From Clavaria fumosa (taxonomy: Eukaryota > Basidiomycota > Agaricomycetes > Agaricales > Clavariaceae): a stretch of DNA of 64,000 bases. Under the pieces are notes generated by a model that made no database searches, had not been told where the DNA came from, and saw only the letters and a list, made by a program, of their open reading frames with translations. The first letter of the stretch is position 1. Every line of letters begins with the position of its first letter. The stretch lies in NCBI GenBank assembly GCA_951802425.1, contig OX637798.1, positions 3,596,001 to 3,660,000 on the forward strand, in the 5' to 3' direction. This document shows, piece after piece, positions 3,001 to 63,895 of this stretch. The position numbers and the translations under genes are program-made.

Positions 3001-3906
3001 AGCATGTGTGCCGCTGTCAACCGAGTGAAAAACGAACTGCGAAACTCTTTTAAAATTACGGATCAGGGCGAGTTGTCATGGCTCCTGGGATTCGAAATCA
3101 GAAGAGACAGGGCCACAAGGACAATAGCACTAAACCAACGGGGGTACCTCGAGGTTCTAGCCCAACGATTCGGTCTACAGGACGGACACCCCGTCCATAT
3201 CCCGATGGATCCGTGCGCTGTCCTATCGAAAGATCAATGCCCTGCTGAACCGATTGACGTACCTTATCAAGAGGCTTGCGGCGGCGTGCTGTGGCCAGCC
3301 GTCATATCCCGTCCAGATGTTCAATTGGCTGTCGGGATTTTATCCCAATTTACAATAAACCCCGCCCGTGTGCATTGGGAAGCGCTGAAGCGTCTGATAA
3401 GGTATTTGAGCACAACAAAAGACTTGTGGCTCACCCTAGGAGGCAAAGGGACACGCCCCGAGGTCTTCTCAGACGCCGATTGGGCATCGCAACCCGATCG
3501 CCATTCGATATCCAGCTTCGTTATGCGTATCGGATGTGGAGCTGTCAGCTGGTCCTCGAAGCGGCAAACCCTGGTCGCGCAATCCAGTACCGAAGCGGAA
3601 TATATTGCAGCTGCCATCGCTGCGAGGGAGATACTTTGGATAAGGAGTTTTCTGTCGGAGGTAGGAGCGACGAGATTATGGCTGGACAACATGTCCACTA
3701 TCGCAATAACGAAAAACAACAAATTCCATGCACGCACCAAGCACATCGACATCCGTCACCACTTCATTCGTGAGGCCGTCGAGCAGGGCACAATACGAGT
3801 GGAATACGTGCTGACAAGCGAAAACATAGCTGATGGTTTCACGAAGCCACTCCTGCGACCCGCATTCGAAACGTTCATTCGGGAACTCGCGCTTCTGCCC
3901 GTTTGA
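25..3906 (+). CDS. Copia gag-pol polyprotein, 3' part, nearly intact
   Basis: The frame encodes capsid, protease, integrase and RT-RNase H for copy-and-paste transposition. It is open from 25 to the stop at 3904-3906. The same frame continues upstream but is cut by TGA at 22-24, so the Gag start is missing or damaged. Visible in order: a UBN2-type Gag segment; a CCHC knuckle (CENCKRTNHKTENCY); a protease site reading DSST where DSGA/T is usual, probably inactive; an integrase zinc region (HCALGH and CDACAQAK); integrase acidic residues in HADVWGP, LHSDRGGEF and GAVECWNRT; RT with QVDVAAYLNA and the catalytic pair in VSTDDMVMMG; and RNase H with STEAEYIAA. The active-site Tyr of YxDD is Ser here, as in the second copy. 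About 1290 codons without a stop is unusual for this window and suggests a fairly recent insertion. Confidence 0.92.
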   Translation, partial: KFDEYKQKEYSAQHILLTTVSPCLATVIKSLSASEMWKAIRTDATRKSQLHKVDTRRRLQSMTCAEDGDIKAHLNAMIKIRDELEGIGASVMDDDFTTMILTSLPPSYRSLLHSITHTTSLSSTEISPNDLMHIVLEEARQREIADLASKSGDAALHVKKGKGCKGKSDDSSTKTPCENCKRTNHKTENCYSDGGAKQGQAPWQKKKEKANTAATQAKKQENDEEYLAFTCLGNPHEVTAAISPAGKLHDIILDSSTTAHFCPDRSMFVSYSTTSPTTITAADGRKLKAVGRGDIVLQTQNGERISTLRLRNVAHAPSMAFTLVSVGKLDDAGYAAEFTDNLCQIKDPQGKVLAQIPKVNGLYCIKTLSLEAHLAKKQQTLTLFEAHCALGHINYAAVKHAVSSGKVLGISIDNTSEEIFCDACAQAKLHRLPFPDKATNRAKTYGERIHADVWGPASIASLGGSRYTVDFVDDATRWTEISLLHRKSDAFNAYTRLEAQISTHNNTKIKFLHSDRGGEFNSDAFSDHLAEKGTKRELTTHDTHEQVGAVECWNRTKAELARAMLIDSNLPKFLWGEAMTHAAWIKNRSPTRALEGETPFYARYAKHPNLSKLVPFGTPAWVKIADAGKLERRARKGHFLGIDSTSTGYRIYFPDTKQIRIEREVVFNLDENTDAIVWTGELPLEGRTMTRLIQHSTAQPDCPPMADVQPDNVHQPDSPNEESQMNLHVAPSLDDDPLPSRTRPQPGFYKNLAGYAPRGHAANLADVQTDDHPPLFALLAGSIGNEPRSIAQALAGPDANQWKRAYQIELDQLNRSRTWDIVDRPLDKPVILCGYVFRLKLGPKGEIVKYKARVVAGGHRQTKGTDYNETFAAAAKIASIRVLLSLAAQCDWEIDQVDVAAYLNAELEEEVYMELPHAVLSANDRRKVCRLRKGLYRLKQSGCMWYQKMAVTFISLGFNVSKLDQSAFIRVQQNENENVHVTVSTDDMVMMGSMCAAVNRVKNELRNSFKITDQGELSWLLGFEIRRDRATRTIALNQRGYLEVLAQRFGLQDGHPVHIPMDPCAVLSKDQCPAEPIDVPYQEACGGVLWPAVISRPDVQLAVGILSQFTINPARVHWEALKRLIRYLSTTKDLWLTLGGKGTRPEVFSDADWASQPDRHSISSFVMRIGCGAVSWSSKRQTLVAQSSTEAEYIAAAIAAREILWIRSFLSEVGATRLWLDNMSTIAITKNNKFHARTKHIDIRHHFIREAVEQGTIRVEYVLTSENIADGFTKPLLRPAFETFIRELALLPV

Positions 3907-3916
3907 GAGGGAGTAT

Positions 3917-4145
3917 TGGTAATCACCCGGACAGATTACGTAACACGTATGTTTATTTGGTTGCGAGTTAGCAGTGCCACAGCTCAGTCTTCTATTTGAC
4001 TGAGCTGTGAGTTTGTCTTTTTTACTTCGCATTATAACCGTACTGATGGCCTAGGATAGAACAGAGTAATCCTAGGTACTACAACAAATAGATACAGTCT
4101 TCTATTTGACTGAGCTAACGGAGTAATCCTAGATTTCTATAAGCA
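3917..4145 (+). repeat. Probable 3' LTR of copia copy 1
   Basis: The LTR starts with TGGTAATC directly after the purine tract and probably ends in TAAGCA. Copy 2 has the same arrangement (TGGTAATC at 27457). Inside are a perfect hairpin (3978-4009) and a second partial copy of the hairpin sequence (4095-4116), followed by GGAGTAATCCTAG. Boundaries are inferred, because the 5' LTR is not in the window for comparison. Confidence 0.6.
3978..4009 (+). other. Perfect 12-bp stem hairpin in copia 3' LTR
   Basis: CACAGCTCAGTC, an 8-nt loop TTCTATTT, then GACTGAGCTGTG. The same stem with a different 8-nt loop is found in copia copy 2 at 27519-27550. The partial second copy here (4095-4116) repeats the loop TTCTATTT. 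Confidence 0.85.
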
Positions 4146-5499
4146 GCAGTGTTCAATGGCTTTGTCACATTTGAACCCAGGACACTCAGCTCAGATCTGT
4201 TGAACACCCTCAAAACCCCACACCTCCAAGATGATGGCCATCCCTTTGAAAGCTCCAGCTTGTGCATGGCCTAGCGGGAAATAGAAGGACTGTGGTGTAC
4301 CATCAGCAAAATGACCATCTGCCATTGGGACCTTCTTCTTTGCCAGCTTTCCCTCAGTGTAAAAACTGGCTGCCCAGTCTTACTCATCACATTTCTGGAG
4401 ACACCAAAGATGGGTTTACCAGGTTTTGTGGGTCCTTTAGACATTTTGCAAGCAGAGAGTGTGTCATCTGCACATTTCAGGTGGGTGGTTGCATTATCAA
4501 AAACAAAAACATGGCATTCATTGGGAAAGTGCTTGTCAAGTATATCCTTGGCTGTGGATGCATGCTTCAAGATGTCCTCATTTGTAAAATACCCTTTGCA
4601 TGCCTTTCCCGCCTTGAAGAGCACTTGTGCAGCATCTTCTCCACTTGCTGACTGAAGCCATCTGTAGTCTGCAGAGACAAAATCAGCCACCATCAATGAT
4701 GCACCTTCTCCTTTCAGTCATGGAACTGCAGTTTTGTCTGGATGCACCCAGTATACCTTTTGCTGATCATTTGCATAAAATGTTGATTCATCATGCCACC
4801 AGATGACAATGACACAGCAGTTTAGGAGTCCATCACTCTTTGCCTCCTTGATCCCATCCTTCCAAGTTTGTAGATTCCACTCAAGTTTGGCAATGGTAGG
4901 GAGGAATTTGCCCTGCTGGTATGTCACCACATCATCACATTTGTGTCTGTCAACATATTGGCCTGATGGCATCTTTGTCCACCAATAATCCATCATGTGC
5001 ATCCACCTTTGGGCTGTGGCAAGTGAGATTGTTTTTTTCAGTGAGTACCACTCCTTGATTTCAGGAGTGTCAAGGAAGTGAACAATGTCCAGGGCTTTCA
5101 CCCACTTGCCCTTCTCCTGGAGATGGAAATGGATTTCATGCACAAGCTCACCATTATCAAGAAGGGAGATATTCCATGGGAAGATTTGAACAGTCTTCAA
5201 TAAATGATCAGGCCCATTTGCGAATCTGTTTGCTGTGTGTGAACTCTTTTGAAATGAGTGCGCCATTTTCAGTGATGCATCAATCCATCCTGCAGGCTTA
5301 GACATGTCAGTGTACATCCAAAGCATCATTTTCACCATCTGCAGCCTCTGTCAAAGCAATTCATCACTTTCAAATGGATTATGACCCAGGCCAGATTTGT
5401 GTTTTGGACTCGAGACTGAGGTGACATCAGTGAGTGCAGATTGTGCAGCTGATTTATCAGGTGGGGGTTGGAAAATCTTCTTCTCATGATTGGGATTCT
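4146..5499 (-). pseudogene. DDE-type DNA transposase relic, truncated at both ends
   Basis: This minus-strand frame resembles a DDE transposase family that I recognise from basidiomycete genomes but cannot name precisely. From the N-terminal side: a segment ending EKKIFQPPPDKSAAQ; a Trp-rich middle (WMHMMDYWWTKMPSGQYVD); the first acidic motif WWHDESTFYAND; MVADFVSADY; the second acidic motif VFDNATTH; and a tail with FKGMAIILEVWGFEG, then a Cys motif FKCDKAIEHCC. Two long blocks (5338-4718 and 4696-4271) are in one frame, separated by a single TGA. A frameshift lies near 4390 and another stop near 4200. The tail is cut by the copia LTR and the N-terminus by the H1 LTR. Confidence 0.75.
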
Positions 5500-10285: not shown

Positions 10286-11719
10286 TGTCAGGACCCATTC
10301 ATTTTTCCCTTACCCAAGCCGACTCTACCAGCATCTACAAACCTCCCAATGACCCTCTACAACCTCGCAAGCCCCTCCACACGCTTCCGGAACCCACTAT
10401 CCTCTTCCGAAAGCCTCTCCGACCTTCCCTGCGCTCGCACGACACCATACCATACTCGCGATGCCTCCTACTACATCACCCCACATGTATACTCTGCCCG
10501 CACCCACCAATTCTACGCGCAACACGCCGTTGCATGTTCTCTTCAGCCAGTGCCAATACGTTACAAGCGTTACGGCCGTTGCCTGTGTTACTACCGTTAC
10601 CCATGTGATTTCCCACCCAAGGTCACCTGCGTCACTAGCGTCACCCACATGACCATTCCTATGACCTCACAACCTTAATGCTCAAATGTGCCACTGACGG
10701 TCAGATGTGTACACCTTTCAAATTATGTTCCCCTTCTTCTCCTCAGTCGACTATAACTATGTAGCTCATGATCCGAGGATCCCCCCGTAGTTATAGTTAT
10801 GTGTACACTTATTTAACTAGGTTGTGACCCATGACAGGTCATCTTCGTGACCTTACCTATGCATTCCCAACCCCTCACGACCTTAGTAGAACATGCGCAT
10901 GGTCACTCCCTGACTAGTTATACCCCATACTACTATAGTTCTGTCGCCTGGCGACCTTTGTACTATTCCTTTTCTGTTACGCTCTCTGTACGCATGTATA
11001 TAAGTCTTGCATGTACATACAGTACGGTAGACTTGATATTGATGCATTTTGGTTTAAGCTTGAGGCATGATGCCCTTTGAGCTTGGAATCATCGTGATTG
11101 ATAGGTCTTGTCTCACTTGGTGACCTTGACAACACCAAGACCACTCTACTTCTCTCTACTTTTGTCCTCCGCGCTTGTACAACTCGCGTGCCTAAGTATT
11201 TCCTTTACTTCATCTTGGTACTGACTTCTTCGAACCCTACAGGTTCTCCCGTCGGTTGGCAAAGTCATCGCCTTCACCAACACACTTCTTAAACACTGTC
11301 GCAACTACCCATGACTCTTCCAACATTGTCTCTTTCCTTCACCTCATCTTTTTCTCTCTTACGCTTCGTCGGTCAACTTCGCGACCTTCTCAGCGTCACC
11401 TATTTCTCCCACCTCATCTATTCCTTTCTTCACACTTCATCGGTCGACCTTGCGACCTTCTCAGCGACATCTCTTGTCTCCTCACTTGTCCCTTTCCATC
11501 CTACACCTTGTCTACCAACTTCGTGACCTTCCTAGTGACGTCTCCCATCTTGCTACTTGTTCGTGTCCATTCTCACATCTTCCCAGATGTCTACGCGACC
11601 CTCCAGGACTGAGCATTCTCGACTGTGCTCAACAGTTGATTGGTCTTAGCAAGTTTCCAGGACCAGTCACCAACAAGTCGACCTCCAGCATCACTTTTGA
11701 GATGGGACAAGCCCTAACA
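10286..11719 (+). repeat. Solo LTR of the element C family
   Basis: The 1434-nt LTR starts TGTCAGGACCCATTCATTTT and ends GACAAGCCCTAACA. It is flanked by the direct repeat GCAAC (10281-10285 and 11720-11724). The same LTR borders element C at 53097-54392 and 62405-63890. Deleting the LTR and one repeat rejoins the gypsy B integrase frame exactly, so the insertion and the later LTR-LTR recombination happened in B. Repeated TCGCGACC/TCGTGACC motifs run along the LTR. Confidence 0.92.
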
Positions 11720-16848: not shown

Positions 16849-17447
16849 CAATACTAACATCACACCCATCCACCCTAGCCTTGTGTCCTAACCCAGCTAG
16901 CCTGGACCCCTATCTCAAACTGTCACACTCTGTCACAGCTTATCCCCCTCATCCTCTATCTCTTTACCCTGCTCGTGGTGTGCAACAGAACCATGTGAAA
17001 TTCTTACTGTGTATAGATACACGTGACCCAACCCGGAGCACAGCCACTGTACTCCTCCCAGTGAATTGTTTAGTGTACAGGGCAAGAAAGGCCCTCTACA
17101 TAGTCTTCTAGTCGTTTCCTGGTCCAGTGGACAGGGCCCTTGCTCTGTGACCATTGTCAGAAGGGCACATGGGCAACTCATTAAGAGTTGTGGAGCGACC
17201 ACCTGGGACACCATTTGGGCCCCACGCTAGCAATAGCTTCATAGAATAAGAGTTCTATAGGTACCTAAGTACATAGAAGAGCAGCCTGAGAGGACAGGAC
17301 TGCTAAGAGATTGAAGAAATCCTGAGTGCCCAAGGCCCAGAACTTTATTTACAGCATCTAAGACTGAGACCGGGTCGAGCCCAGCTCCCCCCTGATTCAC
17401 CAGTAACTGACGTACCCCAGACCCCATCACTGCAACCAGGGTCTGAG
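16849..17447 (+). other. Gypsy D 5' leader, non-coding
   Basis: No supported gene lies here. The leader is shared with E, where it lies on the other strand at 22600-22896. It contains CTGTCACACTCTGTCACAGC and GTTTCCTGGTCCAGTGGACAGGG. No clear TGG-type tRNA primer site directly follows the LTR. Confidence 0.6.
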
Positions 17448-18440
17448 ATGGCAGACCATGTTGCCCCACCTGCAGCCCCACCGATGAGGCTTGACTTATC
17501 TGTTGCCCCCTTCAATGGGCAGAAAAAGAACTTCTGCATGTTCCTCCATTCGCTTCACCTCCAGTTTATGGCGAATCCGACCATCTATGCCACGGACCTG
17601 GCAAAGGTCCTCTACACCCTCAGCAAAATCGCTGGAGATGGGTTTGCCGCTGAGTGGGCAAATATGAAGGGAGAGGAAATCCTGGGCAATGACAAGGTTG
17701 GAACCTGGGTAGAATTCATGGAGGAGATGAAGCGGGCCTTCGACAACCCGAATGACCACACGACTGCGCTCGCCAACATCACTAAGCTGAAACAGGGCCT
17801 TACAACTGCACCTGAATTCTTCGCAAAATTCGAGACACTGTTCTGGAGAGCAGAGTTGGATGAAGTGAGGGATTCAGACATCTTGGTCCACTGGATGGAG
17901 CTGAACCTCAGCAGGAGATTGGTGGTGAGGATCTATGGTGTCTCTCTGATGCCAGAAGACTACAGAGGGTGGAAGGCACTTGCTGAGAGGCTGGATGCCC
18001 AGCAGCGATGGTTCGACAGCGTTATTGCCCAGCAGAACTCTGCGTGCCCTACCCCACCCACTGCCAACCAACCCCTCCCCCAACAAACCTGCTTCACCCC
18101 AGCCCCTCGCCCCTTCCTGGCCCAGCCACAGGCCCGCACCCCAGCCCCTCCCATCATGCTGTGTCCTGCCAGTGCTGGTGATGCCATGTTGGTTGATTGT
18201 GCCCATGCTCCTGGAGTAGGATGCACCTGTTTCCGATGTGGCCAAACTGGCCACATGCCTCCTCCCAGACACATGCCCACAGATCCCGAGACTGCAGGTC
18301 CATGCCGTGGAAAGCCAGACAAGAAATGCCAAGGACTATGAGAATGAGATCGCGTTGCTCCAAGACCATGTGGAGTTGCTTGAGAGAGAGAAGAGGGCTC
18401 CTGTTGAGGAGCCGGATTTTGGAGATGAGGTCCAGTGAGT
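17448..18440 (+). pseudogene. Gypsy D gag
   Basis: The frame opens at ATG 17448 and encodes a capsid-like protein: LDLSVAPFNGQKKNFCMFLH, DGFAAEWANMKGEEIL, WVEFMEEMKRAFDNPND, and LKQGLTTAPEFFAKFETLF. A Pro/Ala-rich linker and a knuckle CFRCGQTGHM follow, but the fourth ligand (Cys) is missing. The frame ends at TGA near 18339. A shifted continuation with ENEIALLQDHVELLEREK runs to 18438. The relic E at 22270-22548 encodes the same capsid on the minus strand. Confidence 0.85.
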
Positions 18441-21400
18441 CCAAACTGGTGCCTCGGGAGTAGATATCCCAGCCCCCCTCCCATCCCTGTATCCGCAGCT
18501 AGTATTCCAAAATACACTATCTTGCAGCAGAGATACACCCAGATTGGGGCTGAGATGAAGGACAAAGTGGAAATGGAAACCACTAAGAGTGAAATACTGA
18601 AAAGCGAAATGGGGACCATCAGGAAAGGGGAGCCAACAAAGCACCTTGCAGAGGTGCTGAAGGACACCCTATCGCATATGCCCCAAGAGCTCTCCATCTG
18701 GGTGCACCTGGAAGCTCTCAGCACTGGCAAATGGGCAACTACGAAAGCCCTTGTCAACTCAGGCTGCACCAACTGCTTTATGGATTTGGAGTGCCCGAAA
18801 ACAAGTACCCTGGCCTCTGCCAGTAATCCAGACACCTGTTTTCCCAACACTGGCCCCACTCCTGATTGGCCCCTTGGTCTTTAGCAAAGCAAAGTGGGAT
18901 GAGCTCCCCTGCTCCCACCCTGACTTTGATATTAAAATTGAGTTCAAGACTGATCCTGGGCACCTCTCCACTAAGCTATACTCACTAACGTGAGAAGAGA
19001 TGGCGGAGATGAACTGATGGGTGGATGAGCAGTTGGCATCTGGATGTATCCAACCTTCGAAATCCACATATGTGAGCCCCTTCTTCAAATGCAAGAAGGA
19101 CAAACTGCAACCAATTATCAACTACTTGAGGCTTAATGCACATCTGATTAAAGACAAGTACCCCCTCCCCCTCATCCGAGACACTGTGGATGTGTTGAAG
19201 GGGGCAACCATCTATTCCAAGATTGATGCAAAGGGAGGTTTCCCATCCATGCAGGTCTGGCCAGAGCACCAGCACCACTGTGCCTTCTTGATGCCTTGTG
19301 GACTCTTTGAACCAGCTGTCATGTGGTTTGGACTGCAGAATGCACCAGCCACCTTCCAGTGCTTCATGAATCATGTGTTGAGGGAGGAGATTGTGGGAGG
19401 ACATGTCCGAGCTTATGTGGATGATGTGATTGTGTTTGCAGAGGATTTGGCAACACATCAGTACTGGATGGATTGGGTCTTGTGGAAGTTCAGGGAGAAT
19501 GGGCTGTGCCTCAGACTCAGCAAGTGTGAGTTTGAGAAGGACAAGGTCCTCTTCCTTGGGATGAAAATTTCCCACAACTGTTTGGAGCATGACCCAGCTA
19601 AAGGCGTGGCGGTCTGTAACTGGCCATGACTGAGGAATGTGAAGGAGGTCCAGAGGTTTAGCGGGATGCTAAACTACCTCTGTCGACACATCCTGAACCT
19701 CTCTGCTCGTGCTAAACCACTGTTCCAGCTGACTGGGAAGGTCCCATAGAAATGGGAGGAGGAGGAGGAAGCAGCCTTCCAAGATCTTTGCCTGGCACTC
19801 ATATCAGCCCCAGTCTTGGCTCTGCCACAAGATAAAGGGAGATGGAAGGTAGAGACAGATGTGAGTAACTTGGCGACTGGTGGAGTCCTTTTGCAGCAGC
19901 AGATGGATGGGACCTGGAGGGTTGTGGACTACATATCCAAGGCCCTCACTGCAGCTGAGAAGAACTATGACATGTATGACAAGGAGTTCTTAGCTGTGAT
20001 TTGGGCACTTCGCAAGTGGTGGGCATACCTCATTGGAGTGGATGAGACAATTGAGATCTGGATGGACCATGCAAACCTCCAGTACTTCCAGAAGCCCCAG
20101 AAGTTGAAACCAAGACAAGTCCGTTGGGTTGGGGAGCTCCAGTGCTTTGACTTTGAGATAAAATATTGCACTGGCAAGTCAAACACGAAGGCAAATGCAC
20201 TCTCCTGGAGACCGGACTATGGAGAGATGGTAGAGGAGGATGCACTGGTGTGGGTATTCCTGGAAACAGAAGTCCATGTGTCATTCACATTGGAAATGGA
20301 GATGCTACTCCAGAAAAACAGCACAGTACATGTGCAGAAGCCAGAGGAGCTTGACGATGAGTGGATGAGAGATCAGATAGGACTCTGGCAGAAGGCAGAA
20401 ATCACATGGGTGCCCCCAGAAGCATGTGAGGCAGTGCTCACCTTTGAGCATGACCTCCCCATCGCTGGGCACCCTGGTCCATGAAAGCTGAGGGCAGCAC
20501 TGTTGAGGTCCTACTGGTGGGTGGGCATGGTGAAGGATTCCAATTGATATGCAGGTGGATGTGAGACATGCCAATGAGTAAAGCCCAACAATACCAGGTG
20601 TGCTGCCCCACTCCATCCACACCCTGTCCCTGAGAGCCTCTGGGCAGTTATCTCTTGGGACATTGTTGGGCCTTTCCCCCTCTCATGTGGTCACAATGTG
20701 ATCCTTGTCATTGTCGACAAGTTCACAAAGCGAACTCTCATTGAGGCGATTGGCCTTGACCTCATGGGACTTGGTGCTGCTTGGATCCTCCAAGACTGGG
20801 TCTTCCGCGACCATGGAGTCCCACAGAAAGTTGTGAGTGACTGGGGAACCCAATTCATGTCCAGATTCATGAAGGAGTTCTATGGGATGATTGGGGTCAA
20901 GGTGAACCCAAGTACAGCCTTCCACCCACAAATGGATGGGCAGACAGAATGGGTCAACCAGGAAGTGGAAGTGTATCTCCAGGCCTATGTTGACCATCTG
21001 CAGGATGATTGGGCAGAGTGGCTGTCTACAGCAGAGTTTGCGCTCAATAACCATGAGCACTCAGCCACTGGATTCATGCTTTCTATCTGGAGTATGGCCA
21101 GCACCCTTGGAATGGCGGTATCTGGCCACCTACTGAAGTGAACCCTGTGGCAGACAAGTGGATGGCCAAGCTCACGGAATCCTGAAGAGCAGCCAGAGAA
21201 GCAATGGGGAAGGCAGCAGATGTGATGAAGGCCAGCTATGATAAGGGAAAGTGCCCGAGTCATGAATACTCAAAGGTGGACTTAGTCTGGCTGGACACTC
21301 GGAACCTGAAAATGGATCAACCCTCCAAGAAGCTTGATAACAAGCGTGCTGGACCCTTTGCCATTGAAGAAAAGGTCGGACCAGCTGTGTACCAGCTCAA

Positions 21401-21728
21401 GCTCCCTCGAGCATGGTGCATTCACTGGGTTTTCAACAAGCTGCTACTCACTCCATATGTTGCCCCCTCTTTCCCTTCCCAGAACTTGCCTCCACCCCCA
21501 CCCCCCATGATTGACGATGACCACTTGGAGTATGATGTGGAGGCAATTCTTGATGTCAAGAAGGTTGGACAGGGAGTGAAGTATTTGGTGAAGTGGTTGG
21601 GATACCCAGTGGAGGAGAACACTTGGGAGCCTCGTCACAACCTCACTAATGTTATGCTGTTGCTCCAGGACTTCTTCCAGCAACACCCCAACAAAGCAAA
21701 ATTGGCTGGTCAAGATGCCCAGCCTTAA
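18441..21728 (+). pseudogene. Gypsy D pol: PR, RT, RNase H, integrase, chromodomain
   Basis: The protease reads ALVNSGCTNCFMDLE, with the catalytic Asp replaced by Asn (18750-18790). RT runs 19021-19629 with YSKIDAKGGF, NAPATFQCFMN and intact AYVDDVIVFA. RNase H lies near 19816-20200 (VETDVSNLATGGVLLQQ, NYDMYDKEFLAVIWAL). The integrase core runs 20690-21141 (FTKRTLIEAIG, VSDWGTQFMSRF, HPQMDGQTEWVNQE). The C-terminal part runs 21204-21728, with FAIEEKVGPAVYQLKLP and a chromodomain EAILDVKKVGQGVKYLVKWL. Stops at about 18882, 18991, 19015, 19627, 19747, 20482 and 20546 are mostly TGA, with TAG also present; several replace Trp or Arg. Confidence 0.9.
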
Positions 21729-52110: not shown

Positions 52111-53096
52111 GAAAAAGTTGGAGATGCTGGGAGGCTGTGAGGACCTATTGTAAGTTCACTCACCCCCCCCTCCTACAAAATTTTTTATCTTAAGAAAAAA
52201 TTTCTATGTTTTACTAAGGAATTTGTCAAGAAGTGGGCTAGAGTGGACAGAAGAGTCAAACAAAAGGAGGAAACAAGGAGTGTTGGAGTTGTACAAAAGG
52301 CAACAATGTATGGAACAAGATTTCAGAGTTTTGTAAGTCAAGAGAAGTGAGGGAATCAAAAGTATCAAAAATGAAAAAACAGAGTTTTGGAGATTCAGAA
52401 TTCATGGGGATTGGATTAACAGGAAACATAAGGACATAGGAAGCATAATAATGTAGCAAAGGAACATAATTTTGGAATTTCGGAGTCTTTGGAGCATCAG
52501 AGGAGGGCGGAATCTCGGAGTTTCGGAGATGCGGAGTCCGAGAATGTGAGTGTGGAGTGGTCTGGAGATGTGCGGAGATGTGGCGTGGAGGTCCGAGACC
52601 ATGTCAGAGGAGTTTGGAGTAGTTCAGAGTAGCAAGGAGTGTGTGAGCAACCTCGCTGGACAGATGTGTTCACAAGATAGCAATCCTGAGAACTGGTGAT
52701 GCAACCACAGTGGGGAGCATCCAGAATCAGGTCCAGATTCAGACTTGCTGCAGCAAGGATAGAATTGGAGTCCCGGAGTCGGAGTTCCGGAGTAGGTCCA
52801 GAGTATGCGCTGGCCAAGCACCCATCGGAGTCCGTGCCCGGATCAGGCCGGAGTCAGATTTCCGCAAGTGCAGGAGTCCTCAAATTGTTAGGCTTGTACA
52901 CTGGACAATCAGCAGATTGTATATGGTACAGCCAGGTGTCCAAAGGACCAAGTCACACAAGGGGACAAGATCAGAGTTCAGAGGGCCATGTCGAGACAAG
53001 ACAGTGGGCCACAAAGCAAGACAAAGTGTCTGGAGTTCGGAGTTCCAGATTTCGGAGGTCCGGAGTTTGGGGGTCTGGGGTTTGGAACTTCCAAGC
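52111..53096. other. Repeat-derived spacer, target of element C
   Basis: No gene. It contains many GGAGTYCGGAG words like the H LTRs and a purine tract complement ACTCACCCCCCCCTCC at about 52158. The last five bases, CAAGC (53092-53096), are the target duplication of element C. Confidence 0.5.
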
Positions 53097-54392
53097 TGTC
53101 AGGACCCATTCATTTTCCCATACCCAAGCTGACTCTACCAACATCTATGACCCTCCCAACGACCCTCTACCACCTTGCGAGCCCCTCTACATGCTTCCGA
53201 AACCCGCTGCCCCCTTCCGGAAGCCTGCCCAACCGTTCCCGCGCTCACACGACACTCGCAACCACCATGCTGTACTTGCGACGCTTCCTACTACTTCACC
53301 CTACGCGCATACTTCGCCTGGACCCACCAATCCTACGCGCGACACACCGATATGCGTCTACTTCCACCAGCACGTGACTTGCCATGCGGCACCCCTGGTG
53401 CTACCACTACCAGCGCCAATACGTTACTAGTGTTACGACTGTTACTTGCATTACCAGTGTTACCCACGTGACTACCCACCCATAGGTCATCTGCGTTACT
53501 AGCGTCACCTGCATCACCTGCATCACTCATGTGATCGCTCTTATGATCTCGCAACCTTAACACTCAAACGCGCCACCAACAGTCAGCTGTATGTACACTT
53601 CAAATATGCGTCCCTTCTTCTCCTCAGTCGTCTATAATTACGTTACTTATGATCCGAGAATCCCTCTGTAGTTATAGCAACGTATATACTTATGGTACTC
53701 TAGACTTGATATTGACGCACATTGGTTTAAGCTTGAGGCTAGTACGCCCTTTGAGCTTGGAACCACTGCGATTGATAGGTCTTGTCCCTCTTGGTGACCA
53801 CAAGATCACCAAGACACACTCTACTCTATTCTAACTCACTCTCTGCGCTTGTACAACTCGCGCAATCTAAGTATCCTCTCTTATTCATCTTGGTACTGAT
53901 CTTGGAACCCTACAGGTTCTCCAGTCAGTTGGCAAAGTCATTACCTTCAACCGACTTACTTATCAATATCGTCGCAATCTCTTGCGACCTTCTCTATGTC
54001 GTCTATTTCCTTCACCTCATCCTTTCCCTTTCTTACGCTTCGTTGGTCGATCTCGCGACCCTCTCAGCATTACCAGTCTCCCCCACCTCATCTATTCCTT
54101 TCTTCATGCTTTGTCGGTCGACTTCGCGACCCTCTCAGCGTACTCATTTCCCCCTCCTCGTCAATTTCCTGCTCTACACTTCGTCTACCAATTTCGCAAC
54201 CTTCCCAGTGACGTCTTCTCTTTTTATACTTATCTTCCTTTGCTCTTACATCTTCTGAGACGTCTTCGCGACCTTCCGGGACCGAGCATTCTCGACTGTG
54301 CTCAACAGTTGATTGGTCTTAGCGAGTTTTCAGCATAGGTCACCAACAAGTCAATCTCCGGCACTATTATCGAGATGGGACAGGCCCTAACA
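53097..54392 (+). repeat. 5' LTR of element C, with internal deletion
   Basis: 1296 nt. Compared with the 3' LTR it lacks about 190 nt between two copies of TACTTAT, leaving one copy (near 53690). This looks like a slippage or short-homology deletion after insertion. Most other differences between the LTRs are C/T or G/A changes, many at CpG sites. Confidence 0.93.
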
Positions 54393-54446
54393 TAATATCA
54401 AGTCTCCCCCTTGCCCCACCACTCAACACCCGGATAGCACCCTATT

Positions 54447-56304
54447 ATGTCTTCTAGTCACACTCCTCCCCAACCAACCACTCATCACTTCCAGACATGC
54501 ACAGGTAGCCGCGCGATCACTCCAATGATCTTGGAGACTACTCACGAGCCGCCTACCACCATACAAGAACGACCCACATCCGTTGTTCAATCGCAGCCTG
54601 AAGAACCCGCCCAAATCGTACCTAGCCACACCTCGTCACTGCGAGAAGAGGCCGAATCGCTCGTGGAGCAGCTCGGCTACCCGCACTTCGATCGCCCTCG
54701 CCACTGCACCTACCAAATCCTTAACAATACTCGCCGCCAATACGAGGCCGGAACTCTCGATGAAGAACTTGCATATCTCATTGAGACAATGAACCTCTAC
54801 GAGGCATTGGTACGATTGACGGATGGATTCCGAGCTAACCCACAGAACCGGTTATACAAGAGTCAGCATCAGTATCCAGGAACTACCGACTGTGGAGTTC
54901 CAACTCCTCCTGATCTGGATACCCCCTCGCGACCTCCAAGACAGGTTCAACCCACCAGAGGACCCCGGGATATGGCCCTGCTTTTCCTGGTCATGGCCCA
55001 ATCTCTTCAGAATTTCGCGAATCCTGCTGCGCCCGATGAGCAACCAGCCATTCTCTCCAGGATCCCAAGGTACACCACCCCTCGCAGTAGCTGGCCAACA
55101 TGGATGCAGCCAGCCACTACTCCGAGTAGGGCACTCCCTCGCGACCCTATAGGGACCGAAGCAACACTTCAACCTGCCCCTCGCCTTGAGATTCCGGTCG
55201 AGCCATTCCGTATTCCACAACCAGAAGTGCGACCAGTACCTCCGATCGAGACACGACCAGCATCTCGCCCCCCGTCTCAGGCTGAAGCCCCGCAAGTCCC
55301 TCCGATCCCCCCTATGCCTCCACACCCTGCCGCCGTGCTTCGAGATGAGGCCCCTGGTACCCACCACCACCATTACTATTACCAGGCTCCTCCCTCCGAA
55401 GGACCATTGACCCAAGATGCCTTTGCTCGAGAATCCAAACTCAACACCAGATGCCCCGAGCCGTTTAATGGTCATGACCAGCGTAGATGGAAACCCTTTG
55501 TCACAGAATGTCTTATGACTTTCTTTGCAAAACCCATAACCTTCCAAGGCGACCATGAGAACGTTACTTTTGCAGCCTCTTATCTCACGGACACCGCACA
55601 GAGCCACTACACCTCCCTCCTTCAATTCAATCCCTACCACCTGGCCTTACACTCGTGGGAAGGCTTTATCCGCGAGTTTGGAGGGATGTTTGGAGTGGTT
55701 AATATGCAGATCGAGGTGGACCAGAACCTCCGCATGTTGCAAATGGCCGAAAACGAGCGCTTCTCGAACCACATCATCCGCTTTGAGTTGTTCGCCTTCG
55801 AATCCAACTGGAATTTGGCCGCCTTGCAGTCAGAGCTCTACTGCTCGATGTCCACGCGTATTAAAGAGGCCATGAAAGTCATTCCGCGACCTACGACGTA
55901 TCAGGAACTTCGTGATTTGGCCATGCAGATTGACCAGAGGCACTGGGAATATGAGAGTGAGACTCGCTGAACTCAATTCCGTGCTAACCCTCCTGCTCCC
56001 CGTCCCCCTGCCCAACAAGGTGGAAATTGCCTCTTGGCTCAACAAGGCGGAAATCGCAACTACCAGACGACGTTGCGACCTTATCCAGCTGCTGGCAATA
56101 ATCCTATGATGCCCCGACCAGCCGCAGGGAATCCCGTGACTTTGCCGCGACCCGCTAATCCACCCTGTCAGCCGAATCCGAATCTGAATCCGCCCTACGT
56201 CCCCCTCAGCAATGAGGAATGAGAACGTTGTCATCAGGGAAATCTTTGTTTGAGATGTGGAAAGTCGGGACATTACAGCATTGCATGCCCCAATTGATGA
56301 TTAG
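54447..56304 (+). pseudogene. Element C gag
   Basis: ATG at 54447 opens a 507-codon frame ending in TGA at 55968. It has a Pro-rich N-terminal half, then a capsid-like domain (CPEPFNGHDQRRWKPFVTEC, HSWEGFIREFGGMFG, ERFSNHIIRFELFAFES, LYCSMSTRIKEAMKVI). The frame continues past the TGA (likely CGA originally) with Gln/Asn/Pro repeats and, after another TGA, the knuckle CLRCGKSGHYSIAC (about 56250-56290). Capsid and nucleic-acid-binding parts are thus present but interrupted. Confidence 0.88.
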
Positions 56305-59300
56305 CCGGACGAGCCGTCTTCACACTAGAGGAAGGAGAAGAAGACTTACAGGAAGAGTACGAAGTTGAGGAAGAAGTAGAAGAGGATGTGGATGACCCAC
56401 ACGAAGAGTTAAACGAGGAAGCGACTCAGGAGCTTCCAGGGGAACTCTGAGTCGCAACGATCCAACCCCCATACTCGCACACGGGCCGCGACTAGTTTCT
56501 CTTCCCCTCAGTTTCCTCACGACCTTTCTAATACTCCCATTGCTTCCCAGTCTTCCCAATCCTTCCTCATAAAGACACAAATACCAGATTTCAGCTCGAT
56601 TCCCTTAAATACTCTTGTTGATTGTGGCGCATCAATGAATTTCATCGATTTCACCCTTGCGAACTCCCGTCCAAACCTCTTAATGCCACTTCCACAACCT
56701 CTACCGCTTCAATACTTCAACGGAAGTTCCTCCAGCTCCAATATAACCCACTACGTCCATGCTAATATGAAATTCCCTGACGATACTATCCAATCCATTA
56801 AGTTCCTCATCACTAAAACTCATCCTCTCACTCCTGTGGTTCTAGGGCTCGATTGGTTGCGAACCTGGAACCCTAGGATCAATTGGACCAACCTCACTTT
56901 TAGTTTCGGACAGACAGCCTGCTCCGCGACTATCCCTCTCACCCTTCTGGACACAAAACCCCCGAATAAACCTCTCCCTGACCTCGTGAACTCAGCACTG
57001 AAACCCTCTAAACCCCCGCGAGTTCAATTGGTCAAGGCCACCATGCTTTGCCGCTTGGAGCAACAAGGAGAATTTATAGGTCTCCTATACTTCCAACCTG
57101 TGAACAACCCCCACGACGACGAATCCATACTCGCGAGTTCCGCGACCACTCAACCCCCTCTGAAACCCGAAGAAACAGTACCGCACGAGTACCATGACTT
57201 TATGGACATATTTTCCGAAGATTTAGCCCAGGAATTACCTCCGCACTGCGACTATGACCACCAAATTGAACTTGAGGAAGGTGAAACACCTCCTCACGGG
57301 AAGCTGTACAACATGTCAGAAGTAGAGTTAAAGACGTTGAAAGATTATTTGGATGACATGTTGGACAAAGGCTTCATTCGGCCGTCGAAATCCCCTGCAG
57401 GTGCACCGGTACTCTTTGTGAAGAAGAAAGATGGAGGCCTTCGCCTTTGTGTCGACTATCGAGGTCTCAACAAGATCACCCGCAAAAATCGCTACCCTAT
57501 TCCCCGAATTGAGACCCTCGTCGACCAGTTACGATCGGCCAAAATCTACTCCAAGATCAACCTCCATGTTGGATATAATAACGTAAGGATAGCTGAAGGA
57601 GACGAGTGGAAAACTGCATTCCACACTCACTATGGCGCGTTTGAATATCTTGTCATGCCTTTTGGACTCACGAACGCACCTGCGACCTTTCAGCACCTCA
57701 TGAATGATATCTTCCATGATTTGGTTGACGTGAATGTGGTAGTCTACCTTCACGACATCCTAATCTACTCGGACAACCTCGAACAACATCGCAACCACGT
57801 CCAGGAGGTTCTACGACGTCTACAAAAGGCAGACCTGCATGCGCGACCGAGAAGTGTGATTTCCACACCGCGACAGTCAAATATCTCGGAGTTATAGTGT
57901 CCCCCAACAGAATTGCCATGGACCCTTCGAAGATACAGGCCATCCTAAGTTGGCCTGTACCTACGAAGATCCATGACCTTCAGAGCTTTTTAGGCTTTGC
58001 TAACTTTTATCGACGATTCATAGACAACTATTCCGGCATCGTTATTCCACTTATGTGACTCCTCCACAAGGACACACCATGGAAATGGAGCCTGCGATGC
58101 CAAGAAGTCTTTGATATCCTCAAACAAGCCTTTACCAAAGCTCCCATCCTCTGGCACTACGACCCCGATCACCCCATTACTCTTGAATGCAATGCTTCCG
58201 ACTACGTGATAGCAGCCATTCTCTCTCAAACCGATCCCGCGACTAATGAGCTACGTCCCATTGCTTTCCATGCACGTACAATGATCGCCACAGAGCTCAA
58301 CTACAACATTTATGACAAAGAGCTACTCACGATACATGATGCTTTCAAGCAATGGAGAGCGTACCTCAAAGGTGCATGATACCAAATTCAGGTCTTTTCA
58401 GACCACAACAACCTGCGATATTTTACCACCATGAAGCAACTCAGCTGTCGACAAGCCCGCTGGGCAGAGTACCTTTCCAGTTTCGACTATGTAATTCATT
58501 ATTGAGCAGGAAAGCTAGGCGCGAAGCCAGATGCCCTCATGCGACGACCCGATGTCTACCCGAAGAAGTCCGACCAACCCGCGACTAATGCGCAAAACAA
58601 CAAGGTCGCGATACCGCCGGAACTACTTCAAGCAGCCATTATCCTCAACAAAGAAGCCCTGATTTCGCGAATTCGACACACCCCTTGTGACTCCTACTTC
58701 TCCAAGAAATTACAGGGCGCTTCTCAAGGTTGCGACAAGGTGTTCTCGCTCTTGCCTGAAGGCTCACTACTACTTCACAACAGTAAAATATATGTCCCCA
58801 ACCACGACTCCCTCCAATTCGATATCCTATGCTCCAACCACAACCACAAACTACGAGGACATCCAGGTATAAGGAAGACAACCCAACTAATAAATAGGTT
58901 GTTTTTCTGGCCAGGACTCTGAAAAGACGTAACCGTCTACGTCCGTGGTTGTCACACCTGCGCAAGGGCAAAACCCGTCCGGCACAAACCCTACGGACTC
59001 CTCAAGCCCTTGCCTATAGGCAAGCGACCTTGGTCTTCGATTTCGATGGACCACATCGAAGCCCTCCCCCTCTCAGCGACCTTTGACTCGATTCTCGTTG
59101 TCGTCTGCCGACTTATGAAACAAGCAATTTTTATCTCCACCAACACTACTGACACTGCGAAAGAGTTAGCTCAACATTTTGTCACCCACGTTTTCTCAAA
59201 ACATGGGCTACCCGCGGACATAGTGTCAGATAGAGGAAGATTATTCGTTTCTAAGTTTTGGTCTTCGTTATGTCAGGCTTTGGATATTACTTCAAATCTT

Positions 59301-60110
59301 TCCACAGCCTATCATCCCGAGACCAACGGACAAACCGAATGAGTCAACCAGATCTTGGAGCAATATATCCAAATATATACGAACTACCAGCAAGACGACT
59401 GGAATTACCAACTCCTGTTCGCCGAGTTCGCATACAATAACACCCCTCACAGCACGACTGGTGTCTCCCCATTCTTCGTGAACAAGGGATACCACCCTAG
59501 ACTCACGGTTTCTCTCGACGACGTACCCGCGCATGAAGCTCACATGGTCGCAACCGATCTCAAGATGCTTCACCAGCATCTACGAGACCAACTCAAGGTC
59601 GCGAATGAGGCCTACTCACGCTTTGCGGACAGGAAGAGAGAGATTACACTGGATTGGAAAGAAGGAACGAAAGTGTGGTTAGATTTGCGGAATGTGAAGA
59701 CGAAGAGACCAATGAAAAAATTGGACTCGAAACGAGCCAGACCTTTCCCCATACTCGCGAAAGTTTCGACTCACACATATTGTCTCCAGTTACCGAAATC
59801 GATGCGAGAAATTCACGATGTCTTCCATGTTTCGTTACTCAAAAAGGTCTATGACGACGCTTTCCCCCAGTGGCAACAGCAACCCCCGCCCCCTATCGAG
59901 GTCGATGGTGAACAACATTACGAAGTTGCTGACATACTAGATTCTCGAAGGAGGGGTAGGAAAGTGCTTTACCTCGTATGATGGGAAGGTTACAGACCCG
60001 AGGATGACACCTGGGAACCCATAGAATCACTTTCCAGCTCGAAGGAACTCCTCAAGGACTTCCACGCGACCTACCCGGAAAAACCTCGCGCAACTTGCGC
60101 AACTCAATAA
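56305..60110 (+). pseudogene. Element C pol: PR, RT, RNase H, integrase, chromodomain
   Basis: An acidic linker (56330-56450) leads to the protease NTLVDCGASMNFIDFTLA (near 56610). RT runs 57230-57900 with DKGFIRPSKSPAGAPVLFVK, LRLCVDYRGLNKITRKNRYP, NAPATFQHLMND and an active site reading [11 protein letters not shown], where the first Asp of YLDD is His. A 1-nt shift lies near 57845. RNase H, about 58180-58550 (NYNIYDKELLTIHDAF). Integrase 58800-59700 (HNHKLRGHPGIRKTTQLINR, CHTCARAKPVRHKPYGL, ISMDHIEALPLSATFDSILV, DIVSDRGRLFVSKF, STAYHPETNGQTE). Chromodomain 59900-60060. Stops at about 58056, 58377, 58503, 58919, 59340 and 59979 are all TGA. Confidence 0.92.
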
Positions 60111-60209
60111 TTTTCCTCACCTCTTTCTTGTTTTTTCTTCACTTTCTCACTTTGGATTTCACAGCAATTCATATATACGCAATAAAAATACAATAAGAAA
60201 ATTTTCTAT
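60111..60209. other. Short convergent gap between pol and the antisense gene
   Basis: The pol stop (TAA, near 60108-60110) and the antisense gene's stop (60210-60212) are about 100 nt apart, tail to tail. The plus strand has CAATAAAAATACAATAAG, which could serve as a poly(A) signal for the sense transcript. Confidence 0.55.
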
Positions 60210-62288
60210 CTACTGGTTGCAAGCTTTTTCCTTCCCCTTTCGCAACCCTTCTGCTCCTTCCCCGCCTTCCACACTCACAACTTTTTCCTTTTCCCCCTTC
60301 TCCTCCTCTCCAGCCTCAGGAGCCTTCAACTCAAAACCCCAATTGTCCACCCTTGGAATATCCAACAGCTCCCTCCTCACACGACGCTGCTCCTGCTCTG
60401 CCCATTGCTCTACCCACAACAGGAGTTCTTCCAGTGACTTCATCAAGAGGTCTTCGTAGGCGAAGAAGACTGTCTTGAGGCCTCGCCGTCCTCGAAAGCG
60501 AGCCTTGCGGAGTTCACCGACCATACTCGCACATTGGTCGCGCAACCCTAAAAACCAATCTTTAGTTTGTTGCCAAAAACAAAAATAAAAATAAAACCCG
60601 TGAAGACTTACCTTTTTCCCGCTCCCTCGATGCCCTCAACTCCTTTTCCATCCTCTCTACAGTCGCGAACAAATCTACAAAACAAAAATTAGTTTGTGTT
60701 ATACTTGCGACTATGGAACTTACTTCGTTCCGATTCCTCAGCCTCCTCCAGTTCGACCTTATGGTCTAGATAAACACAAATGTCAGCTTATAACGTCGCG
60801 AGATGAAATCATGACTTACTGGTCCCTTCCTTTTTCATTGTTGCTATTACCTCCTCAAACTCGTTGCGAGTCTTCTCCACCGTCACCAACTATCCTACGA
60901 ACGAGGATCAGCTCATTTTATACTCGTGACTGTTGACTTACCCTCTTTTTCCTTTTTCAACTCCTTCACCTCACCTCGCGCCTCCCTCAATTTGACTTCC
61001 TGGTCTGGTTCACAACAAGATTAGTCCGCGACACTATAAAATAGAATGACTACTCACCTTGCCACTCCCATTCGAGCGCCGAGAAATCCTTCTTGGTATC
61101 CACTATCTGCACTCTCAATTTCGCATTCTCTGCCTCTATGTTGATGGGCGTGGACACCTTCATCATGTCACCCTGCGCCCTCTCCACTTCTTTACCTTTT
61201 CCTACGAATCCGCAAGTTCAGTAAGACCGCAAATCGATAAAGAAAATTTAGGACTCACCTTTCTTGCCCCACCGCAACTCCTCCAACTCACGCTTAGCTG
61301 CCACCAATTCCACCTCCAATTCCGTCTCCCGATGCGACTTGTATACCCACACTATCTTCTTCGTGGGTTCCGCGAGTTGCTGATGGAGCGTTGCGAGCTC
61401 CCATTCCAGATCTGTCCTGGGGACCAAGGCCCCCACAACCTTTCCTCCTCCCTCCACCAACCCCTTCGATGATGACGACTTCGCCACTCGCCTCCTTGTT
61501 GACGGACCAGGCATCAGCGACTGCGATCTTGTCCTTGCTCGCTTTCCGTGTACTGCTTGCATTGGGGTCCCCGGAATCGAAATAGTGGGGAGCTTGGCTC
61601 CCACTCGACTCGCTGTCGCAGCTGATCCTGGTGCCTCTGCCCGTCGCAGAGCCTCATCGATTCGCGTGTTGCTCCACCCGAATTCGGCCTTGATGCGCCA
61701 TCTACGAAATTCCTGGACCCAGGAACACTTCCCATGGTCCTCTGTGCACTGGCAACACTTGCCGGCAGTGCTGCGCACACACTGTTGGCCCTTTGCGACG
61801 CAGTTGTTGCAATCCTGGGGTTTTAACAATCAGAAGGAACGAATAGGGATGAGAACTATTATTACGCACCTCTCGCCCCCTTTCGTTCCACTCTTTGTTT
61901 TCCTTTACTGACCCGATTTTCTTCCAAGCTTTTATGAAATCTGCAGGCGACGGGTCAACCTCACTTGCGACGTTGCCCTCCACCTCGCTGGGGCCCGCGA
62001 CGTTCTCCACTGACCCGCAACATTTTCCACCAACCCGCTTGGGCCCGCGACGTCCTCCCTCGCTTTGTTGGGACCCACGGCTTTCCCCCTCCTTTTTTCA
62101 CGCCTCGTGACTTCTTCTCGGGAGTGCGCACATTGCGCCTGTTCAGCCTTTTGACGGGCCAACACGTCTTCCAAGATCCCCAGGTTGAGACCGGGTTCCG
62201 TTGCGTTGTAGATCTCCATTTCGCGCGCAACTTTGTTTGTATTCTTGCTGGTTTTGGTTTCATGTTGTTTGATGAAAGCAGAGACCAT
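60210..62288 (-). pseudogene. Antisense Zn2Cys6-like coiled-coil gene in element C, eight exons
   Basis: ATG at 62288 in a CACCATGG context. Exons (minus strand): 62288-61870, 61814-61259, 61201-61058, 61004-60942, 60894-60820, 60765-60724, 60674-60612, 60547-60210. All seven introns are 47-64 nt with GTRNGT...AG ends; the first is phase 0, the rest phase 1. The product is about 566 residues. Exon 1 has repeated REDVAGPSGLVENVAG units. Exon 2 starts with DCNNCVAKGQQC and continues to HGKC; the spacing C-X2-C-X6-C-X7-C-X2-C-X6-C is exactly that of fungal Zn(II)2Cys6 clusters, but the loop between Cys2 and Cys3 is less basic than usual. Exons 2-7 encode Glu/Lys-rich heptads (LEVELVAAKRELEELRW, EVKLREARGEVKELKKEKE). 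Exon 8 ends EGLRKGKEKACNQ. Lesions: a 1-nt loss near 62010-62020 and a TAG starting exon 5 (likely former CAG). Function is not known. Confidence 0.78.
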
Positions 62289-62404
62289 GGTGGTTGGACT
62301 TAGAGAAAGATTTCGGGTGTTGTGACCTGATCAACAAACATCATGCTGACTAATCATCACGTGATCTCCACTCTCACAGGGCTCGAGGCTTGAAGGGGGG
62401 GTAA
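62289..62404 (-). promoter_or_regulatory. Putative promoter of antisense gene, with CACGTG palindrome
   Basis: Only 116 nt separate the antisense ATG from the 3' LTR. This interval holds the sense purine tract (near 62391-62400) and the palindrome ATCACGTGAT (62355-62364), an E-box core recognised by bHLH factors. The antisense promoter must lie here, in the LTR, or both. Inference from position. Confidence 0.4.
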
Positions 62405-63890
62405 TGTCAGGACCCATTCATTTTTCCCATACCCAAGCTGACTCTACCAACATCTACAACCCTCCCAATGACCGTCTACCACCTCACGAGCCCCTCTACA
62501 CACTTCTGAAACCCGCTGCCCCTTTCCGGAAGCCTGCCCAACCGTTCCCACGCTCACACGACACTCATGACCACCATGCTGTACTCGCGACACTTCCTAC
62601 TACTTCACCCTACGCACATACTTCACCCGGACCCACCAATCCTATGCGCAACACACCGATATGCATCTACTTCTACCAGCACGTGACTTGCCACAGCACC
62701 CCCGGTGCTACCACTACCAGCGCCAATACGTTACTAGTGTTACGACTGTTACTTGTGTTACCAGCGTTACCCACGTGACTACCCACCCATAGGTCATCTG
62801 CATTACTAGCGTCACTCACGTGATCGCTCTTATGATCTTGCGACCTTAACACTCAAATGCACCACCAATGGTCAGCTGTATGTACACTTCAAATATGCAT
62901 CCCTTCTTCTCCTCAGTCGTCTATAATTACGTTACTTATGATCTGAGAATTCCTCTGTAGTTATAGCGATGTATATACTTATTTAACTAGGTCGCGACCC
63001 GTGACAGGTCATCTTCACGACCTTACCTATGCATACCTAACCCCTCGCGACCTTAGTAGAACACGCGCCTAGTCACTTTACGACTAAACATACTCCGTAC
63101 TACTATAGTCTTGTCGCCTGGCAACCTCTGTACTTTCCCTTTTTCGTTATACTCTCTGTACGTACATATATAAGGTCTCACATGTACTTATGGTACTCTA
63201 GACTTGATATTGACGCACATTGGTTTAAGCTTGAGGCTAGTACACCCTTTGAGCTTGGAACCACTGCGATTGATAGGTCTTGTCCCTCTTGGTGACCACA
63301 AGATCACCAAGACACACTCTACTCTATTCTAACTTGCTCTCTGCGCTTGTACAACTCACGCAATCTAAGTATCCTCTCTTATTCATCTTGGTACTGATCT
63401 TGGAACCCTACAGGTTCTCCAGTCAGTTGGCAAAGTCATTACCTTCAACCGACTTACTTATCAATATCGTCGCAATCTCTCGCGACCTTCTCTACGTCGT
63501 CTATTTCCTTCACCTCGTCCTTTCCCTTTCTTACGCTTCATTGGTCGATCTCGCAACCCTCTCAGCATTACCAGTCTCCCCCACCTCATCTATTCCTTTC
63601 TTCACGCTTCGTCGGTCGACTTCGCGACCCTCTCAGCCTACTCATTTCCCCCTCCTTGTCAATTTCCTGCTCTACACTTTGTCTACCGATTTCGCAACCT
63701 TCCCAGCGACGTCTTCTCTTTCTATACTTATCTTCCTTTGCTCTTACATCTTCTGAGACATCTTCGCGACCTTCTGGGACTGAGCATTCTCGACTGTGCT
63801 CAACAGTTGATTGGTCTTAGCGAGTTTTCAGCATAGGTCACCAACAAGTCGATCTCTGGCACTATTATCGAGATGGGACAGGCCCTAACA
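62405..63890 (+). repeat. 3' LTR of element C
   Basis: The 1486-nt LTR begins TGTCAGGACCC after GAAGGGGGGGTAA and ends GGCCCTAACA. It carries repeated TCGCGACCTT/TTCGCGACC words along its second half and a TACATATATAAGG TATA-like box near 63163-63175. The CAAGC duplication follows. Confidence 0.95.
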
Positions 63891-63895
63891 CAAGC

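Follow-up and report, generated by a model that had tools for sequence, protein, structure and literature searches.

An intron-rich antisense gene with a Gal4-like cysteine motif in a Ty3/gypsy retrotransposon lineage of Clavaria fumosa

Introduction

Antisense genes situated between pol and the 3' LTR are already known from plants and from the Boty elements of Botrytis and Sclerotinia. Boty-like elements of Botrytis cinerea contain at this site an extra antisense gene, brtn (Zhao et al. 2011, Virology 417:248, as cited in PMC7264820), and the brtn-bearing Boty has been placed in the BcGypsy1 subfamily (PMC8365987). The plant antisense ORFs (aORFs), namely gene23 of Grande, that of RIRE2 and TRP28 of Retand, have the same position and orientation and are present in most copies; the Grande protein is nuclear, TRP28 is predicted to bind DNA, and a regulatory role has been proposed (PMC11963269, PMC7264820). 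Retroviruses offer a parallel in the antisense product of HTLV-1, which is nuclear and has its promoter within the 3' LTR (PMC11963269, PMC7264820). The VANC protein of Arabidopsis VANDAL elements acts in anti-silencing, in association with a short motif that is dense in non-coding DNA, introns and tandem repeats (PMC5735166).

Here we describe a gene at the site already known for antisense genes which is intron-rich and has a Gal4-like cysteine motif. It was found in a window of 64,000 nucleotides of the basidiomycete Clavaria fumosa (assembly GCA_951802425.1, contig OX637798.1, positions 3,596,001 to 3,660,000), and all coordinates without a contig or locus name refer to this window.

Results

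The element in the window

The element at 53097-63890 is a Ty3/gypsy LTR retrotransposon, with an LTR pair, a target duplication, and gag, reverse transcriptase and integrase end in gypsy order. Comparison of the LTR pair delimits the 5' LTR at 53097..54392 and the 3' LTR at 62405..63890, both on the plus strand with TG...CA ends, and the duplicated target site CAAGC is read directly on either side (53092..53096 and 63891..63895). Tandem repeats of 71 bp in the 5' LTR (54013..54185, plus strand) carry TCGCGAC or a decayed form of it every 71 bp, and a second array of the 71-bp repeat occupies 63525-63664 within the 3' LTR. The gag-like frame (54438..55970, plus strand) matches Retrotrans_gag with E 6.6e-05, just under the Pfam cut-off; pol (56413..60110, plus strand) shows protease-like, reverse transcriptase and integrase-end (SH3) regions in open pieces, of which Pfam places the reverse transcriptase within 56413-57897 and the SH3 region within 59343-59981. 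In this copy stops interrupt the pol frame, whose last codon is TAA at 60108-60110. The first part of the 3' LTR (~62405-63000) diverges with the type of the antisense gene, while the distal part is common to the types.

The window also holds another LTR-like copy at 10286-11719, detected by similarity to locus L064, an open copia-type gag-pol frame of 1293 amino acids at 25-3906, and at 17307-21728 the strongly CpG-depleted remains of a different gypsy element with Ty3_capsid, Retrotrans_gag and RNase H.

The antisense gene

The preliminary description had claimed a gene of eight exons and seven canonical introns opposite to pol and inside the LTR pair, and direct reading of the coordinates confirms it: eight exons can be joined over seven GT-AG introns of 47-64 nt on the minus strand between pol and the 3' LTR. 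Exon 1 (61870..62288) begins with the ATG at 62288, and exon 2 (61259..61814) encodes the cysteine cluster (61725..61811), a basic, Arg/Ser-rich linker and the start of a helix. They are followed by exon 3 (61058..61201), exon 4 (60942..61004), exon 5 (60820..60894), exon 6 (60724..60765; 42 nt here vs 63 nt in L002, L005 and L014), exon 7 (60612..60674) and exon 8 (60210..60547), which ends with the TAG at 60210-60212. The gene and pol thus stand tail-to-tail, with stop codons about 100 bp apart, and 116 bp separate the antisense start codon from the 3' LTR, a non-coding stretch (62289..62404) that includes a purine-rich tract at ~62392-62404 and has a mean identity of 0.898 between gene types.

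The window copy does not have a single open frame: exon 1 is frameshifted, so that its start frame differs from that of the cysteine motif, and a TAG in frame opens exon 5. The spliced frame is open through all eight exons in L005, L006, L008 and L014, the first three being near-identical to one another and 575 amino acids long, and L007 has a frameshift in exon 2.

The predicted protein

Fungal Zn(II)2Cys6 clusters have the spacing C-X2-C-X6-C-X5-12-C-X2-C-X6-8-C. The spacing C-X2-C-X6-C-X7-C-X2-C-X6-C, which had been noticed earlier, was found again in exon 2 and falls within this pattern, and its six cysteines are invariant in all 13 sequences that we picked by hand from several types, including the relative P0001 from outside this genome. 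Among decayed copies, one cysteine is changed to Tyr in L002 and L024 and a stop lies within the cluster in L009 and L021, as would be expected of decay after insertion.

In profile comparison the cluster stays under the threshold of the zinc-cluster family. Pfam Zn_clus (PF00172) reached 10.5 bits in one scan, under the gathering cut-off of 21 bits; with E values of up to 10 admitted, 9 of 13 members have a Zn_clus match, the best at 0.15 and likewise under the cut-off, and the window copy itself gives none. Pfam detects no further transcription-factor domain. An hhalign comparison with GAL4 pairs all six cysteines, with E 0.0032 and a probability of 9.9%, while PDB sequence searches returned no significant relative and a viral_contigs scan no relative. 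Structure prediction was uninformative for the cysteine cluster: pLDDT there is about 41, in an AlphaFold model that averages 52.6 and is poor as a whole. The model does show a helix at residues 153-184, in exon 2, with a block confidence of 78-82 over residues 161-180.

The tail that follows the cluster is highly charged and probably helical. That it forms coiled coils, as had been proposed, can be upheld just tentatively: the heptad score of residues 331-490 of L005 is reached by 0.053 of 300 shuffles, which is marginal, and that of residues 263-345 by 0.167 of 300, and to this may be added that exons 4-7 of L005 measure 63, 84, 63 and 63 nt, each a multiple of seven codons.

The gene family in the genome

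We searched the genome (48.8 Mb, 17 contigs) with the DNA of the gene and obtained 81 matches, which by visual grouping come to about 38 loci. L001-L060 represent 40 separate places, all of which have pol or an LTR beside the gene. At 29 of them pol lies on the 3' side of the gene and an LTR on the 5' side, in the expected orientation; six have pol only, among them the near-identical L005-L008, five have an LTR only, and none has neither. The gene is found antisense between gypsy pol and LTR at many loci and does not represent a lone capture.

Separate protein searches for the integrase end and for exons 1 and 2 (at least 150 or so matches each) were joined by coordinates, and 14 exon-1 matches that by eye had no adjoining exon-2 match were added, which gives at least 156 gene places. 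At 67 of these 156 a listed integrase match lies within 3.5 kb in antisense relation, at one it has the other orientation, and at 88 there is no integrase among the matches listed within 3.5 kb. Two representatives of groups among these 88, L064 and L065, each read over 10 kb, consist of pieces of both gene and LTR; L005-L008 belong both to the 88 and to the 40 places described above.

Seen from the integrase side, the association follows the lineage. Among the integrase matches listed, an antisense gene stands alongside in 65 of 81 with at least 75% identity, where exon 2 is mostly 1.2-1.6 kb away, in the single match at 60-75%, in 1 of 12 at 48-60% and in 0 of 56 below 48% (1 of 68 for everything under 60%). 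Of the 16 exceptions in the closest class, three hold pieces of the gene by DNA search, and four appear from their table rows to be one group, whose member L067 has a shortened gene abutting the LTR; L071 by eye has an apparent diverged 3' end of the gene, and L068-L070 gave no gene or LTR match within the 2.2 kb read. No full-length copy clearly devoid of the gene, which would have spoken against the preliminary description, was seen among 11 of the 16 exceptions, L067 being read for its group of four. The gene has the antisense orientation, the position between pol and 3' LTR and the retention in most copies of its lineage that are expected of an antisense accessory gene of the aORF-3R kind, for which a promoter of its own and a nuclear protein would be further marks.

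Locus L067 itself (C7:254817-257016) has an internal deletion, by which the antisense gene is reduced to its coil end, next to the LTR. Four blocks of 98.5-99.9% identity, C4:8199-10704 (L061, L062) and L006-L008, lie about 4 to 152 kb from contig ends and comprise the antisense gene and a 234 bp end of pol, with no matching LTR; three of the four gene copies are fully open. We considered a host-gene origin for these four copies and discarded it, because the 234 bp pol end that they carry derives them from the element. On C4 there is in addition an ORF at 2497-4710 that looks helicase-like by eye, and adjoining the C4 gene copy a second Zn2Cys6-like ORF (L061:7036-7746; CSRC...CDRC...) with a charged tail, for which Pfam Zn_clus is also under its cut-off.

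Outside this genome relatives were met in P0001, P0002, P0003 and P0004; of the first three only P0001 has the cysteine cluster, and between its exon 1 and exon 2 homologies it shows, by eye, residues resembling an unspliced intron at the position of intron 1. No cellular parent gene stood out among the matches listed, and the suggestion that the element had captured its gene finds no clear donor there.

Selection and conservation

Pairwise dN/dS values, calculated with our own NG86 script with stop codons excluded, are 0.18-0.29 between gene types over 360-569 codons, which indicates purifying selection across copies, and 0.31-0.54 within one type, where post-insertion decay has a greater weight. 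Intron positions are kept between gene types that differ by about 25% and are shared with relatives of about 70-85% DNA identity, and most splice sites are preserved in 22 aligned copies; the exceptions are one changed site each in L002, L016 and L017, damaged sites in L009 and L023, and the L011 group, in which neither the region of exon 6 nor the acceptor of intron 2 agrees with the projected boundaries. Exons are not much more alike than introns (0.765 vs 0.740 between L005 and L014), and between L001 and L002 exon identity (0.866) is even below that of introns (0.938), so the constraint becomes visible in codon position and not in overall identity: the L005-L014 differences at codon positions 1, 2 and 3 number 98, 104 and 199. 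By these comparisons of sequence the antisense gene is under selection, linked to its lineage and conserved in protein sequence between subfamilies.

Exchange between pol and the 3' module

The relation of the gene to its surroundings was followed at 13 loci, L015, L018 and L019 of an initial 16 being left out for their rearranged flanks. The identity of pol in these 13 is equal within and between gene types (means 0.909 and 0.912) and uncorrelated with that of the gene (Mantel p 0.43-0.47), while the gene itself has 0.94-0.96 identity within types vs 0.69-0.78 between them, and therefore pol and the 3' module have separate histories. Judged from these identities, pol and the antisense gene recombine independently, which suggests that the 3' module has been exchanged between elements, and such separate histories are what may be expected from template switching.

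At the same 13 loci the first part of the LTR tracks the gene (r 0.94-0.97) and the distal part tracks pol (r 0.67), and the former relation looked like a locked co-adaptation of gene and U3. In the larger set of 34 loci nothing remains of it beyond linkage. There the near U3 correlates most strongly with exon 1 (0.75), then with coil A (0.66), the zinc segment (0.45), the linker (0.43) and coil B (0.34). Once exon 1 is controlled for, the partial r stays slightly positive for coil A (+0.13 and +0.14) and turns negative for coil B (-0.19 and -0.12) as well as for the linker and zinc segment (-0.20 to -0.08). Since the zinc segment and the linker do not track U3 beyond exon 1, a cognate recognition of the LTR by its gene is unsupported. 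One locus, L043, combines a type I gene with a different U3 type.

A dispersed TCGCGA motif

In comparison with 100 shuffles, the window element contains 31 CGCGAC (mean 4.3, maximum 9) and 19 TCGCGA (mean 2.5, maximum 7), the latter spread over LTRs, coding sequence and introns of 53097-63890, and thus shows the element-wide dense short motif that is typical of VANC-like systems. The motif is oriented, CGCGAC lying mostly on the pol strand (25 v 6). Over the whole genome GGTCGCGA has 3465 occurrences and its reversed control 1738; for TTCGCGACC the two figures are 1138 and 588. TCGCGA occurs in six of the seven introns of L005 and in 3, 1 and 1 introns of L002, L014 and L010. Introns 4 and 6 of L002 resemble each other with z 9.2 and some introns may be copies of one another, and therefore the six TCGCGA-bearing introns of L005 do not count as six independent gains.

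It is an unlikely, though not negligible, explanation that a local bias in mutation or methylation, with no relation to the gene, has brought about this enrichment. The decay forms TCGCAAC and TTGCGAC are common, sites turn over between gene types, and the rest of the window is also in some excess: its 41 kb from 12000 to 53000 hold 9 CGCGAC (shuffle mean 2.6, maximum 9) and 4 TCGCGA (mean 1.6, maximum 6). Against such a bias, the other three palindromes of the form NCGCGN are not enriched: TCGCGA stands at 19 vs 1, 1 and 1 in the window element, 25:1:1:1 in L002, 13:0:2:1 in L014 and 16:0:0:1 in L066, and an equal bias was found in L002, L010, L011, L014, L063, L066 and a chunk of L005, in comparison with 5 vs 2, 4 and 3 in 13.5 kb near the C4 end. 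Against it are also the presence of the motif in LTR, coding sequence and intron alike and two small controls that are not depleted in CpG, a copia region (4.0 kb, CpG o/e 1.00) with no TCGCGA and 2.0 kb of gypsy pol from an element that lacks the gene (CpG o/e 1.21) with none of the four palindromes; a second gypsy stretch, CpG-poor and 4.4 kb long, has no TCGCGA either. Conservation between types is mildly positive, 18 of 49 TCGCGA sites being kept vs 128 of 567 other two-CpG hexamers, as summed over six ordered pairs that are not independent. The tie that we propose between TCGCGA and the antisense protein consists in no more than their co-occurrence in one lineage, as compared with a few controls.

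Discussion

From the analysis presented above we lean, with some reserve, towards the view that one Ty3/gypsy lineage has long carried the gene in an accessory role, and that its spliced protein would work in the nucleus as a regulator, on the DNA of the element itself. In the genomic RNA antisense introns stand in reverse-complement form and are left in place by the spliceosome, and by this established reasoning they would survive each round. Transcription of the mRNA would start at a promoter within the 3' LTR or next to it, and the spliced protein, with its six-cysteine cluster, basic linker and helical tail, would enter the nucleus as a dimer and act there on element DNA. The likeliest targets would be the TCGCGA(CC) sites in LTRs and body, and the likely effects control of element transcription or protection from silencing.

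The idea of a regulator-like gene carried by the element thus holds in its lineage linkage, in the introns that are carried along and in the purifying selection, and is weakened by a Zn_clus score under the cut-off. A DNA-acting role via TCGCGA is proposed because of the analogy with VANC and with retroviral antisense genes. Its most specific form, that an antisense-encoded, intron-rich Gal4-like dimer reads the dispersed TCGCGA(CC) and activates or un-silences element copies, would be a form of self-recognition that we regard, on this analogy, as an attractive but rather doubtful proposition; if true, it would make the system a convergent counterpart of VANC and HBZ.

The product might instead be a functional accessory protein at the level of RNA or particle, taking part in genomic RNA export, packaging or capsid assembly, and not a DNA-binding regulator. 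CERV of Cer1 is such an accessory protein and is needed for export of genomic RNA (PMC10309623), and the highly charged, probably helical tail, the cysteine cluster under the Zn_clus cut-off and the orientation of TCGCGACC with the genomic RNA (the 25 v 6 of CGCGAC) would all suit this role. We nevertheless hold it to be fairly unlikely, as the Gal4-like spacing of the cysteines is kept and TCGCGA sites occur also within the introns of the antisense gene and in the LTR repeats.

Still less probable, in our opinion, is that the antisense transcript is the active part, which would pair with gag-pol RNA or interfere with transcription and so lower copy number, the protein being secondary. The antisense position would allow this, and the possibility is discussed for plant antisense ORFs (PMC7264820); against it are codon-level purifying selection (dN/dS 0.18-0.29 between types), the concentration of change at third positions, and introns, cysteine spacing and frame that are kept between types. 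A recent capture of a host zinc-cluster gene, carried as a passenger, would match the intron-rich structure and the four near-identical copies (three open) outside complete elements near contig ends, but is very improbable in view of the tens of loci with many diverged types and low dN/dS, the 234 bp pol end in those same copies and the absence of a cellular homologue that stood out among the matches listed.

Returning to the accessory gene with a nuclear, DNA-acting product, we see its importance on several levels. It is a clear case of how a gene rich in introns can outlast reverse transcription in a retroelement, by lying on the strand opposite to the genomic RNA, with selection visible at the codon level. 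Kept under selection in many copies, the antisense gene may help the element to recognise or regulate itself, and together with the dispersed TCGCGA signature it offers a concrete and inexpensive way to ask whether retrotransposons carry sequence-specific self-regulators. In a literature search that covered mainly openly accessible papers and few subscription ones, we met, among the papers listed, no report of a Gal4-like cluster or of seven conserved introns in an antisense retroelement gene, nor of an element-wide TCGCGA signature or of TCGCGA in connection with Zn2Cys6.

Comparison with known systems

Like Boty with brtn, the Clavaria element is an LTR element of a fungus that bears one more gene, in antisense, in the interval from pol to the 3' LTR; the descriptions of brtn in citing papers mention neither a Zn2Cys6-like motif nor seven introns. 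With the plant aORFs it has in common the antisense gene between pol and the 3' LTR that is kept in most copies; for these, the descriptions name TRP28 or SMC domains and no six-cysteine cluster, and the words "zinc" and "intron" are absent from both texts (PMC11963269, PMC7264820).

The antisense product of HTLV-1 is HBZ, which is spliced and has a bZIP domain; it comes from a retrovirus of people, and it has a bZIP where the Clavaria protein has a zinc-cluster-like motif. Gal4-type Zn(II)2Cys6 factors (PF00172) share with our protein the spacing and order of the cysteines, the basic residues between them and a probably helical tail, whereas the latter stays under the Pfam cut-off and has no other transcription-factor domain by Pfam. 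VANDALs are DNA transposons, and their VANC system is similar in combining an element-encoded protein with a dense short motif that extends to introns and tandem repeats; it is dissimilar in that the protein is a different one and the Clavaria element is an LTR element, and binding of the motif, shown for VANC, is proposed for the Clavaria element.
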